64,000 nt of DNA from OCS116 cluster bacterium AG-430-B22 (GTDB lineage Bacteria > Pseudomonadota > Alphaproteobacteria > MED-G09), in assembly GCA_003209955.1 (NCBI GenBank), contig QCOD01000003.1, positions 36,833-100,832 of the forward strand, given 5' to 3'. A program made the position numbers and the translations under genes. The stretch's first letter is position 1. The number at the start of each line of letters is the position of its first letter. This document shows positions 16,360 through 38,130 of this stretch, in pieces. The notes beneath the pieces are model-generated. The model made no database searches, was not told where the DNA came from, and saw only the letters and a list, made by a program, of their open reading frames with translations.

Positions 16360-17649
16360 CTAATTTCTAAATTCTGGATATGCCTCCATACCTAATTCTG
16401 AGACATCTAATCCAGACATTTCTTCTTCTTCAGTTGGTCTTAGGCCAAGAACGCCTTTCAAGATCAACCAAACAATTGAGCTAGCTACAACAACGAACAC
16501 ACCTATAGTAACTACACCAATAAGTTGTGTCATAAAGTCAGCAGCTAATGTGCCTAATCCAGGTATTCCAACCACTAGTGTACCCCATATACCGGCCACT
16601 AAGTGAACAGAAATTGCACCAACAACATCATCTATTTTCAACTTATCTAATAGAGGAATTGCTAGTGTACATAACACACCACCTACAGCACCAATAATAA
16701 TGGCTTGAAGAGGTGTTGCTACATCTGGACCTGCTGTAATACTTACAAGACCTGCTAGAGCGCCATTTAATGCTAAACTTAAATCAGCTTTACCATATAA
16801 AATTGAAGCTAAAATCATAGCAGCAACTAAACCACCAGCGGCAGCCATATTAGTATTTACATAAACATTAGCCATTGCAGCAGCATCAGCAGCACTACCA
16901 AGCGCAAGTTGTGATCCACCATTAAAGCCAAACCATCCGAACCAAAGTATGAATGTACCGATAGTAGCTAAAGGTAAATTTGACCCAGGAATAGCTATAA
17001 CAGAACCATTAGACGCATATTTACCTAGTCTAGGACCAATGATTATTGCTCCAGTTAATGCAGCCCAGCCACCTACAGAATGAACAAGAGTAGAGCCAGC
17101 AAAATCTGAGAATCCCATTTCTGATAGGAATCCACCACCCCATACCCATGAAGCTTGAATTGGATAAATAAATCCAGTAAGCACAATAGCAAAGATAAAG
17201 AATGGAAGTAGTTTAATGCGTTCTGCTACAGTACCACTTATAATAGACATTGTAGTAGCACAGAAAACCATCTGGAAGAACCAGTCTGACATCTTAGAAT
17301 AACCGTCGGCAGAACTTACTTCAGCCTCGGGATTCCATAATGTAGGCTGCCCTATGAACCCATTAACTTCGTTATACATAAAGCCATAACCGACTAAGTA
17401 AAACATAATTCCAGCTAAACTATACAATCCAACATTTTTTAAACATATAGTAGCTGTATTTTTGGTTCTTACTAAACCAGCTTCAAGGCAAGTAAAGCCA
17501 AGAGCCATAAGCATAACGAGAAACCCATGAACAAGAAAAGAAAATGTGTTAAAAATATACGCAGATTCTTCTGAAACCTCGGCAAATGCTGTTCCACTGA
17601 CAGTAAACAGCATTAAGCCAAGAAGACATATTTTTTTTATTAATTTCAT
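16360..17649 (-). CDS. amt: ammonium transporter
   Basis: Amt family: LVHGFLVMLMALGFTCLEAGLVRTKN, DFAGSTLVHSVGGWAAL, HLVAGIWGTLVVG; N-terminal signal peptide. Confidence 0.95.
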   Translation of the reverse strand: MKLIKKICLLGLMLFTVSGTAFAEVSEESAYIFNTFSFLVHGFLVMLMALGFTCLEAGLVRTKNTATICLKNVGLYSLAGIMFYLVGYGFMYNEVNGFIGQPTLWNPEAEVSSADGYSKMSDWFFQMVFCATTMSIISGTVAERIKLLPFFIFAIVLTGFIYPIQASWVWGGGFLSEMGFSDFAGSTLVHSVGGWAALTGAIIIGPRLGKYASNGSVIAIPGSNLPLATIGTFILWFGWFGFNGGSQLALGSAADAAAMANVYVNTNMAAAGGLVAAMILASILYGKADLSLALNGALAGLVSITAGPDVATPLQAIIIGAVGGVLCTLAIPLLDKLKIDDVVGAISVHLVAGIWGTLVVGIPGLGTLAADFMTQLIGVVTIGVFVVVASSIVWLILKGVLGLRPTEEEEMSGLDVSELGMEAYPEFRN

Positions 17650-17679
17650 AATAATTACCCTCTAAAATGGATGATCTAA

Positions 17680-18333
17680 TTAAAGACTTCCTGCAAAACC
17701 GTATGATACTATGAAGTAAGGGTCACTATCGTCTCTACTAGAGTCAATAATACCGAAACTAAAATCACCTATAGCTAATGAAATACCATAGTCTGTTTCC
17801 GCATCACCCATTTCATAATCATAATGGCCAATATGAAGGCCAAGATCTAAACCTTCAGTAAGTGAAAAACCTGTATCTAGGAAAAAGTATGGATCATCTC
17901 CAAAGCTTGTTCCTTCCCAATCAGCATCTGCTAATACAGCAACACCTAATGTTACAGCACCAAGTTCTGCACTTATACTAACTTCACTAAAATCAAGGTC
18001 ATCTCCATCAGGATATGCATAATAAATGTAACCAACGCTAACTGGACCAAAACTATAACCAAAGTAGCCATCTAATTCATAAGATGTGCCATCTCCAAAA
18101 TCAACATTTGAAACCCATGTACCAATTGAAAAACCATTATCAGCTGTGTAATCTAATCCGCCTGATGTCGCAGCACCACTACCTTGTGACATACCTCTCC
18201 ATAGATATTGGCTTGTTACACCAACATTCCAATCAAGAGATCCAGCAAAAGTAGTACCTACTGTTGCAAAACCAAGGAAAACAGCAAAGAAACCTTTTTT
18301 AACATACTTGTTAAACTTTTTAAAAATAATCAT
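17680..18333 (-). CDS. TorF-family putative porin
   Basis: Signal peptide then SLDWNVGVTSQYLWRGMSQGSGAATSGGLDYTADNGFSIGTWVSNVDFG. Confidence 0.88.
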   Translation of the reverse strand: MIIFKKFNKYVKKGFFAVFLGFATVGTTFAGSLDWNVGVTSQYLWRGMSQGSGAATSGGLDYTADNGFSIGTWVSNVDFGDGTSYELDGYFGYSFGPVSVGYIYYAYPDGDDLDFSEVSISAELGAVTLGVAVLADADWEGTSFGDDPYFFLDTGFSLTEGLDLGLHIGHYDYEMGDAETDYGISLAIGDFSFGIIDSSRDDSDPYFIVSYGFAGSL

Positions 18334-18367
18334 AATGTTAACCTCCTAATTTATGATATGGGTAATA

Positions 18368-18383
18368 AGCAAATTAGATGCCA
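18368..18383 (-). promoter_or_regulatory. sigma-54 (-24/-12) promoter of torF-amt
   Basis: Minus strand TGGCATCTAATTTGCT vs consensus TGGCAYRN4TTGCW: GG and GC correctly spaced; about 25 nt from inferred TSS to ATG, AGGAGG in between. Confidence 0.75.
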
Positions 18384-34370: not shown

Positions 34371-35576
34371 ATGGACTACTTATTAGAAAAAATTACAGTT
34401 ATTGATTGTGCTAGCTATATAGCTGGTCCTGCAGCAGCCACAATAATGTCTGATTTTGGGGCTAGAGTAATCAAAATAGAATCCCCAGATATTGGTGATT
34501 CCTATAGAAGTTTACTTCGTTTACCAGGTTTGCCCAAAAGCGATGAAAACTATCCATGGATATTAACGAGTCGAAATAAAGAAAGCTTAGCGTTAGACCT
34601 TAAATTTAAAGAAGCTCATGTCATTCTTCATAAATTAATAAAAAAAGCAGATATATTTATAACTAATTATCCATTTCCAATTAGGACTAAATTAAAAATA
34701 AACGCTGAGGATATATTAGAAGAAAATAAAAAACTAATATATGCATCCTTATCTCCATATGGCGAGAAAGGTGAAGAAAAGGATAAGACAGGATATGATG
34801 CAACAGCATGGTGGGCAAGGTCAGGTCTAATGCACGCAGTTCGAAATAACTCAAATTCAGAACCAAGTTCATCAACACCAGGAATGGGAGATCACCCTAC
34901 TGCGTCAGCACTCTTTGGAGCAATAATGATGGCGCTATATAAAAGAGAGATAACTGGTAAAGGCTCAGAAGTTTCGTCATCTTTAATGGCTAACGGGCTC
35001 TGGTCAAATGGCATATACAATCAAGCAGCATTATGTGGTGCAAATTTTGTAGAAAATACTGGAAGAGGAACAAAAGGAGCTTTGGCAGAAAAATATAAAT
35101 GCAAAGATGGTAGATGGTTTATTTTAGTAATGTTAAATGAAGAAAGAGAATGGCCTCTATTACTTGGATGTTTAAAAAGAGAAGATGTTAATGATGATAA
35201 ACGCTTTAATACAAGAGAAGGTCGAGCTAAAAATTCTTTGGAATTAATGAAAATTTTAGATGAAGAATTTCTCTCAAAGGATTGGGGTCAACTTAAAGAA
35301 CTTTTTGAAAAATCCGGTGTAACATTTGGGTCAATCTCTGAACCGTATGATCATATTAATGATCAACAAATATCTGATAACGAATTTTTTACTAAATTTA
35401 CTGATAAAAAAGATCTATTAACTGTTGATAGTCCAATTTTTATGAAAGATGAAAAGAAAAGAAAACCTCAAACCGCTCCTGAAATTGGAGAACACACAAG
35501 ACAAATTCTTGAAGAGTTAAATTACGATAAGAACGAAATTGATAAACTCGAAAATAAAAAAATTATCAGAACTTAA
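34371..35576 (+). CDS. CaiB/BaiF family CoA-transferase
   Basis: VIDCASYIAGPAAATIMSDFGARVIKIESP, LALDLKFKEA, SPYGEKG...YDATAWWARSG. Confidence 0.9.
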   Translation: MDYLLEKITVIDCASYIAGPAAATIMSDFGARVIKIESPDIGDSYRSLLRLPGLPKSDENYPWILTSRNKESLALDLKFKEAHVILHKLIKKADIFITNYPFPIRTKLKINAEDILEENKKLIYASLSPYGEKGEEKDKTGYDATAWWARSGLMHAVRNNSNSEPSSSTPGMGDHPTASALFGAIMMALYKREITGKGSEVSSSLMANGLWSNGIYNQAALCGANFVENTGRGTKGALAEKYKCKDGRWFILVMLNEEREWPLLLGCLKREDVNDDKRFNTREGRAKNSLELMKILDEEFLSKDWGQLKELFEKSGVTFGSISEPYDHINDQQISDNEFFTKFTDKKDLLTVDSPIFMKDEKKRKPQTAPEIGEHTRQILEELNYDKNEIDKLENKKIIRT

Positions 35577-36994
35577 ACAGCTAACTGTTTCAATCTTTTC
35601 CTTTGATGAGATGGAGGAAGTGTCATTTCTTCTCTGTATTTAGTAACAGTTCTTCTAGCAACATTAATGCCTTCTTCCTTTAGTAATTTAGATAATTTGT
35701 TATCTGATAGTACTTTTTCTTCATTATTAATTAATTGAATAATTTTTTCTTTTACAACCTTTGAAGATAATCCGTCATCATTAGATAATGTGTTAAGAGA
35801 TTTAGAAAAAAAGAATTTCAAATCATAAGTCCCTCTAGGCGTATAAATAGTTTTAGAATTAGTAATTCTTGATACTGTACTCTCATGGATATCAAGTTCC
35901 TCTGCAATATCCTTTAATTTTAGAGGCCTCAAACCCATAACACCTTGATTAAGAAACTTTTCTTGCTTCTTAATAATTTCTTTTGCAACCTTTAAGATTG
36001 TTGAAGCTCTTTGTTCTAGAGCTTTGACTAATCCTTTGCCAGCTAGAAAATTTGCAGACAAATACTTTTTATCCTCTTTTGATAATTTTTTTCTTGATAA
36101 CTCCTCCCAATACCCAGTTAATACGATTACTTTAGGTAAAGTTTCTTCATTAAGAGACACAATCCACTTATTCTTATCTTTTTCTACAATAATATCGGGA
36201 GAATTAATGTGCGAAATTAAATCACTATCTGTATCAATTGGGGCAGCACTACACCTTTTTAACATGTCTAAACTATCTTTTAATTTTTCTTTATCAATTT
36301 TAAGCTTCTTTGATATTGAAAAAATATTCTCATTAGCAAGAATCGTTAAGTTTTTTAATAGAAGCTTTAAATTATTATCTAATAAATTTTGTGACTTTAA
36401 TTGTAGAGTTAAAAATTCTTCAAGATCATTTGAAAATATACCTAATGGTTCAAATGACTTCAAAACCTTAAGAATTTTTTCAATGCGAAATAAGTCAATA
36501 TTTAAGTCGATTGAAAGCTCTTTTGTAGATACTTTCAAATATCCATTTGGTTCAATGAATTCAAGTATTGATAAAGCAATCAATCTATCAATCTTATTTT
36601 GAAAAGATATATTTATTTGATCAGTAATTATCTGATATAAACTATTTTTAGATTCTATTGTTTCCTCAATAATATTATCTATTGATGTTGATGATGATTC
36701 ATAAAGATTAGCTGTGTCAAACGATGGGCTTCCTTCAGAATCCGTATTATGCGAGAGTGAACTCTCTGATTTATCCTGAGAAGATAAATTTTTATCATTA
36801 TCATTTATGATGTCTTTTAAGTTCTGATCATCAGCTGCTTTTTCTAAAAGAGGGTTGTCAAGGATCTCTTGCTGGAGATAATTATCAAGATCAATATTAT
36901 TTAACTCTAAAAGTTTAATTGCTTTAAGCAATTGAGGAGTCAAAGTCATTTTTTGACTTTGTTTAATATTTTGAACTAAAGAAATTTTTGCCAT
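35573..36994 (-). CDS. rpoN: RNA polymerase sigma-54 factor
   Basis: N-terminal QSQKMTLTPQLLKAIKLLELN; RpoN box ARRTVTKYREEM; 473 aa. Confidence 0.96.
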   Translation of the reverse strand: MAKISLVQNIKQSQKMTLTPQLLKAIKLLELNNIDLDNYLQQEILDNPLLEKAADDQNLKDIINDNDKNLSSQDKSESSLSHNTDSEGSPSFDTANLYESSSTSIDNIIEETIESKNSLYQIITDQINISFQNKIDRLIALSILEFIEPNGYLKVSTKELSIDLNIDLFRIEKILKVLKSFEPLGIFSNDLEEFLTLQLKSQNLLDNNLKLLLKNLTILANENIFSISKKLKIDKEKLKDSLDMLKRCSAAPIDTDSDLISHINSPDIIVEKDKNKWIVSLNEETLPKVIVLTGYWEELSRKKLSKEDKKYLSANFLAGKGLVKALEQRASTILKVAKEIIKKQEKFLNQGVMGLRPLKLKDIAEELDIHESTVSRITNSKTIYTPRGTYDLKFFFSKSLNTLSNDDGLSSKVVKEKIIQLINNEEKVLSDNKLSKLLKEEGINVARRTVTKYREEMTLPPSHQRKRLKQLAV

Positions 36995-37016: not shown

Positions 37017-37032
37017 TGGCATGAATGTTGCA
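37017..37032 (+). promoter_or_regulatory. sigma-54 (-24/-12) promoter upstream of moaA / in the rpoN promoter region
   Basis: TGGCATGAATGTTGCA matches TGGCAYRN4TTGCW at every defined position with correct GG/GC spacing. Confidence 0.75.
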
Positions 37033-37113
37033 TATAGTCAATATAACTACAGAAATCTGTATTTTTTTAAATTTTATCCTACATTAGTATCTTTTTATAT
37101 TATAACATTATTT

Positions 37114-38130
37114 ATGTTAAAAATTCCTAACAGAGATAATATTTTAATAGATAATTATGGTAGAAAAATTGATTACCTAAGAATATCAGTTACCGATAGA
37201 TGTAATTTAAGGTGCACATATTGCATGCCTGAAAAAATGAAATTTATGAGTAAAAAGGATATTTTATCATTTGATGAAATGTATGAATTATGTGAGCATT
37301 TTATTGCAAGGGGCATTAAAAAGATAAGAATTACAGGTGGTGAACCTCTCGTAAGAAAAGGGATATTAGAATTTATTAATAATCTTAAAAGTTTTAAAAA
37401 TATGAATATGCTTGATGAGATTACTCTTACAACTAACGGTACTCTTTTAGAAGATTATAGTAAGGAGCTAAAAAACTCAGGAATTGATAGGATAAATATA
37501 TCTCTCGATACACTAAATGAGGAAACCTTCGAAAAAATTACTAGAAGAAAAAACTTAAAAAAAGTTTTAAGAGGTATTGATGAGGCTAAGAAGTATAATT
37601 TTAAATTAAAGATAAATACGGTTGTTCTTAAGGACAGCAATATACACGAAATTCCTGAGTTAATTTATTGGTCACATAAAAATGGAATGGATATTAGTTT
37701 AATTGAAACTATGCCTCTAGGAGATATTGATAACGACCGTTATGAGCAATTTTTTTCAATTAATGAAATGAGAAAAAAAATTGAAAAGAAGTTTACTCTA
37801 AAGAAATCATCTTATACGACATCTGGTCCTTCAGATTATTATAAGGTTAAAGAAACAGGAAGAAATATTGGTTTTATTACACCTCTTTCAAATAATTTTT
37901 GTAGTTCTTGTAACAGGATAAGGGTTACCTGCACAGGTATGTTATATATGTGTTTAGGGCAAAATGATAAAATTGATTTTAAATCAATATTAAGATCTAA
38001 AGATTACAGTAAATTAGATGCTGCTATAAATCTTGCCATGAGAATAAAGCCGGAAAAACATGAATTCTCAATCAAACCAAGAATGAAAAATAATAAAATA
38101 GAAAGACATATGTCTGTAACAGGAGGTTAA
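37114..38130 (+). CDS. moaA: GTP 3',8-cyclase MoaA
   Basis: Radical-SAM CNLRCTYCMP, RITGGEPLVRKG, CSSCNRIRVTCTGMLYMCLG, C-terminal MSVTGG; ORF track start 37021 lies inside the sigma-54 site, so ATG 37114 is preferred. Confidence 0.93.
   Translation: MLKIPNRDNILIDNYGRKIDYLRISVTDRCNLRCTYCMPEKMKFMSKKDILSFDEMYELCEHFIARGIKKIRITGGEPLVRKGILEFINNLKSFKNMNMLDEITLTTNGTLLEDYSKELKNSGIDRINISLDTLNEETFEKITRRKNLKKVLRGIDEAKKYNFKLKINTVVLKDSNIHEIPELIYWSHKNGMDISLIETMPLGDIDNDRYEQFFSINEMRKKIEKKFTLKKSSYTTSGPSDYYKVKETGRNIGFITPLSNNFCSSCNRIRVTCTGMLYMCLGQNDKIDFKSILRSKDYSKLDAAINLAMRIKPEKHEFSIKPRMKNNKIERHMSVTGG

Follow-up and report, generated by a model that had tools for sequence, protein, structure and literature searches.

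In a PS1-clade / OCS116-cluster alphaproteobacterium, rpoN, the gene for sigma-54, stands back to back with moaA, and the 119 bp of DNA between them holds a sequence that resembles a sigma-54 promoter. Does this sequence serve moaA, rpoN or both, and what would control it? We addressed these questions in a 64,000-nt stretch of DNA (the window), which belongs to an assembly of 1.24 Mb that is ~80% complete, and in the genomes of related bacteria. The coordinates of the features discussed are collected in Table 1.

The element, TGGCATGAATGTTGCA, has GG at 37018-37019 and GC at 37030-37031 with ten bases between them, and this GG-N10-GC core lies within the pattern TGGCAYG-N4-TTGCW. It matches TGGCAYGNNNNTTGCW exactly, differs from the strict consensus TGGCACGNNNNTTGCW by one transition, and is oriented toward moaA and away from rpoN. 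A first-pass annotation of the window had described a correctly spaced -24/-12 element facing moaA on the plus strand at 37017-37032, and both its sequence and its coordinates were verified. One exact match to TGGCAYGNNNNTTGCW is observed in the 64-kb window, where 0.03 are expected by chance from the shuffled window, and it is the sole exact match in the host assembly. With as many as two mismatches allowed, ten sites turn up in the window, no excess over expectation, so the weight is carried by the exact match alone. Across 18 genomes of the family we found 19 exact matches to TGGCAYGNNNNTTGCW, 15 of them being the rpoN-moaA site, as opposed to none for a reversed-pattern control.

Table 1. 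Features of the window discussed in the text (positions count from the first letter of the window)
Feature	Position	Strand	Details
amtB, ammonium transporter	16360..17649	-	ORF; PF00909 at 4e-109 in the congener's orthologue
Gcw_chp-type (PF09694) outer-membrane protein	17680..18333	-	First gene behind the second sigma-54 element; Pfam assignment of the congener's orthologue
Second sigma-54 element, TGGCATCTAATTTGCT	18368..18383	-	Upstream of porin-amtB; kept in three congeners
rpoN, sigma-54	35573..36994	-	473 aa; all three Pfam domains (AID, CBD, DBD); TIGR02395 above cut-off
rpoN leader, site to start codon	36995..37016	-	22 nt; likely ribosome-binding AAGG
Sigma-54 -24/-12 element, TGGCATGAATGTTGCA	37017..37032	+	Exact TGGCAYGNNNNTTGCW; sole exact match of the assembly; kept in 15/15
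TTGACT, -35 of the first-pass annotation	37036..37041	-	Partner TATACA 21 nt off, not conserved
TATATT, tentative alternative rpoN -10	37040..37045	-	From consensus ranking only; would place the start at about 37033, bordering the site
moaA, GTP 3',8-cyclase (molybdenum cofactor)	37114..38130	+	338 aa; TIGR02666 equivalog, 376.7 bits, above cut-off

Conservation was assessed in 15 relatives, all those whose assemblies span the divergent rpoN-moaA region; they belong to two genera. The first-pass annotation had made its reading depend on the GG-N10-GC element being conserved in relatives, and TGGCAYGNNNNTTGCW is kept in all 15 intergenic regions, even though RpoN identity between the two genera is only ~50%. 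Over the 12 consensus positions the mean cross-genus identity is 0.91, compared with 0.48 over the remaining intergenic DNA, and the best-conserved 16-nt intergenic windows all fall on or overlap the site. Its invariant positions coincide with the sigma-54 consensus, and the bases of the 4-nt spacer vary. Judged by its sequence and conservation, the element is almost certainly a sigma-54 binding site.

The joint absence of rpoN and moaA from three genomes of a third genus (G008, G010 and G012) was considered as a natural experiment and rejected, as it reflects assembly gaps. In two of them the neighbouring aminotransferase gene lies at, or a few hundred bases from, a contig end, and the aminotransferase orthologue is missing from the G012 assembly altogether. 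The sigma-54 site at glnB is kept in all three. These genomes are uninformative on the rpoN-moaA site and are not counter-examples.

The site has counterparts elsewhere in the genome. A matrix scan of 1.38 Mb from a 95%-complete congener gave exactly four intergenic sites at 21.2-23.9 bits, namely those of glnBA, of porin-amtB, of rpoN/moaA, and of a TonB receptor whose gene diverges from one for a purine-type permease; the next-best matches score no more than 18.8 bits and fall within genes. Since the family's own sites went into the matrix, the scan is partly circular; a plain IUPAC search returned the same intergenic set, and a relaxed pattern also recovered glnBA and amtB. These last two are textbook NtrC targets, and each has a sigma-54 element like that at moaA. 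The amtB site lies in the window as well and reads TGGCATCAATATTGCT in the other genus; the Gcw_chp gene, which comes first, and amtB (window 16360-18383) likely form a sigma-54 operon. Judged by sequence, the four sites look like a minimal NtrC-RpoN regulon.

Two further loci deserve a description. At L185:399-4231 the sigma-54 site precedes a TonB-dependent receptor gene that diverges from a gene for a Xan_ur_permease-family transporter, suggesting nitrogen-regulated purine uptake; a possible phosphoribosyltransferase is encoded downstream at this locus. Separately, TGGCATTAAAATTGCT is repeated in five second-genus genomes (L170-L173) inside a gene whose translation reads as an MgtE-like transporter, and its recurrence is probably codon conservation rather than a promoter.

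A sigma-54 promoter calls for an intact RpoN and an activator, and the genome encodes both. The RpoN box, ARRTVTKYRE, is intact in the window's RpoN. Each genome with a full-length activator match has a single strong one, which in the window's genome is NtrC: it scores above the TIGR01818 cut-off and carries GSFTGA as the GAFTGA-type loop of an AAA+ activator, and its gene adjoins that of an NtrB-like kinase. No other sigma-54 activator encoded in the genome is convincing. Second, weak PF00158 matches occur just at the cut-off in frames of ~760-800 aa; the frame length and the score point to another AAA+ protein.

Repeats of TTACACA stand ~50-65 nt upstream of the sigma-54 sites of glnB (L116-L121) and porin-amtB (L060, L177-L179), and this is possibly the NtrC-binding motif of the window's genus. 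As a regulon-wide enhancer the motif was rejected, being absent at moaA and at the TonB receptor and not kept in the second genus. A palindrome at 36941-36961, in the coding start of rpoN, was likewise discarded: its bases belong to conserved codons, and the second genus lacks it. No enhancer motif shared among the glnB, amtB and moaA sites could be defined.

The first-pass annotation had also read a sigma-70 promoter for rpoN across the same segment. Its minus-strand hexamers, TTGACT (37041-37036) and TATACA (37014-37009), are present at those positions, exactly 21 nt apart; as an rpoN promoter they did not hold up, since this spacer is too long, the TATACA -10 is not kept even within the genus, and a sigma-70 pattern scan found zero minus-strand promoters near rpoN. 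Most relatives keep a TTGA at a constant spacing from the sigma-54 site. The geometry would also allow TTGACT to pair with CATTTA at a 17-nt spacing (in one relative, TTGAAC with CATAAT); this promoter was rejected for a poor -10 in most genomes. Ranking of alternative sigma-70 promoters for rpoN gave none consistent across genomes. That the site overlaps the region upstream of rpoN is certain; that it overlaps a defined rpoN sigma-70 promoter is not.

The distances on the two sides of the site behave differently. Eleven of the 15 genomes have 20-23 nt between the site and the rpoN ATG (at 36994 in the window), and the other four have 31-32 nt, so a conserved sigma-54 site lies 20-32 nt from the ATG, within or over the rpoN leader region, in 15 of 15. 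The distance to moaA is either 80-88 nt (11 genomes) or 273 nt (4 genomes). A spacing that is held toward rpoN and can lengthen toward moaA fits a role of the site at rpoN. The moaA open reading frame opens at 37021, within the site; from the sequence its true start is most likely 37114, and we take the 31-codon extension to be non-coding because the intergenic length differs by single bases within the genus.

In the four genomes with 273 nt, all of the second genus (L014-L017), a 54-codon frame lies between the site and moaA, opening 35 nt past the site. Substitutions in it are mostly at third positions, with zero indels among the four, and it has no match in Pfam. Its product (MNELFKLSMCIFGTMFLFIGL..., e.g. 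L017) reads as a small, likely membrane protein.

Why would moaA be under nitrogen control? Xanthine dehydrogenase and nitrate reductase were considered as the reason and rejected. The sole PF00384 protein of each genome is NuoG-sized (~690-720 aa where complete), the molybdenum-binding (MoCoBD) hydroxylases found are CoxL-II-like, with the motif AYRGAGR, and neither a nitrate reductase nor another nitrogen enzyme was identified among the molybdenum enzymes found. According to a reading of translations, the CoxL-II-like hydroxylase genes have genes of the P450, SDR and similar kinds around them; two of them (L220:8266-10623 and L221:8061-10373) are solitary, with no obvious medium- or small-subunit genes adjacent. 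The hydroxylases have no obvious nitrogen role, and this is the weakest part of the account of moaA activation. A full-text literature search on moaA, NtrC and the molybdenum cofactor returned nothing that, by title and abstract, apparently treats a link to nitrogen stress.

The reading that we prefer gives the site two roles. RpoN holoenzyme would form a closed complex at 37017-37032. Once nitrogen becomes limiting, phosphorylated NtrC would open this complex, leading to transcription of moaA and, in some relatives, co-transcription of the 54-codon gene. Counted back from the rpoN start codon, the site spans nt 23-38, and because it covers this DNA the bound holoenzyme could exclude or block the polymerase making rpoN mRNA, by which RpoN would cap its own level. 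We infer RpoN binding, the direction of firing, nitrogen dependence and rpoN repression from the sequence and its conservation, the spacing, the regulon and the sole activator. The site probably drives moaA, and we lean, with somewhat less assurance, toward its also repressing rpoN; that both actions take place as stated we judge to be evenly balanced. This dual action had been proposed in the first-pass annotation. Both actions are plausible, and a site held near the rpoN start codon fits autorepression; the overlapping sigma-70 promoter that had been part of the proposal is unsupported.

The alternative that survives best takes the site to be mainly or only an operator of rpoN, at which a closed complex represses rpoN and transcription of moaA is absent or incidental. 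The site tracks rpoN (20-32 nt) more closely than moaA (80-273 nt), shares no enhancer motif that we could find with glnB and amtB, and serves a cofactor whose enzymes lack an obvious nitrogen link. It also has G at position 7 in 15 of 15 genomes and comes nearest the published consensus, and within the window's genus this G is absent from the sites at glnBA, amtB and the TonB receptor. Against an operator-only role, however, all 15 genomes keep rpoN and moaA divergent and the site pointing at moaA, and in four of them a conserved small gene lies directly downstream, as expected of a promoter that fires. We regard this alternative as unlikely, if still a serious one.

Next comes an ordinary NtrC-RpoN promoter of moaA that does not repress rpoN and lies close to it by chance, the intergenic region being compact. 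The site shares its kind of element and its sole activator with glnBA and amtB, and no defined rpoN promoter overlaps it. The held rpoN distance, set beside a moaA side free to lengthen, speaks against this, as does the repression by sigma-54 of promoters that it overlaps in other systems (work cited in PMC4591121). We consider this reading improbable. A far more doubtful proposal is that the element is the operator of another transcription factor and merely resembles a -24/-12 box. Conservation by itself does not name the protein; yet the invariant positions are those of sigma-54 with a free 4-nt spacer, further conserved copies stand at glnBA and amtB, and the genome has intact rpoN and ntrC genes. 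A chance match, which the unremarkable number of two-mismatch sites in the window might have suggested, is refuted by an exact match so rarely expected being kept in 15 of 15 genomes, and its probability is negligible.

On a wider view, the PS1 clade would have cut its sigma-54 system to NtrC and some four promoters, one of them fused to rpoN and setting both the supply of RpoN and nitrogen-controlled synthesis of the molybdenum cofactor; this wider picture is offered tentatively, as a little short of an even prospect. The sigma-54 regulon described here is tiny and nearly complete, and it belongs to a streamlined lineage of the ocean, in which it becomes feasible to study what keeps a specialised sigma factor in place for a few genes and what sets the amount of that factor; it also provides a specific, testable link from nitrogen stress to molybdenum-cofactor synthesis.

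The system resembles the enteric and rhizobial NtrC-RpoN regulon in having an NtrB-like kinase with NtrC, and sites at glnBA (PII and glutamine synthetase) and at an ammonium transporter. It differs in its scale, with about four promoters and one activator, and in taking in moaA as well as the TonB receptor of a purine-permease locus. For rpoN itself, negative autoregulation is reported for R. etli rpoN1 (PMC3916325) and for R. leguminosarum rpoN (PMC3538637). The first-pass annotation had invoked such rhizobial autorepression, and the comparison stands as a parallel in autoregulation rather than in the site: among 15 other alphaproteobacteria sampled, none has an opposed sigma-54 box within 350 nt upstream of rpoN. 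As in those rhizobia RpoN would limit itself, here as proposed from sequence, whereas the partner gene is moaA. As to mechanism, bound intragenic sigma-54 gave no roadblock in E. coli (PMC4591121), which counts against a block of rpoN; sigma-54 is also described as repressing where its own site overlaps another promoter (work cited in PMC4591121), and its closed complex as interfering with a neighbouring promoter (work cited in PMC4591121 and PMC3844500). Compared with those cases of sigma-54 acting on overlapping or divergent sigma-70 promoters, the affected neighbour here would be the gene for sigma-54 itself.
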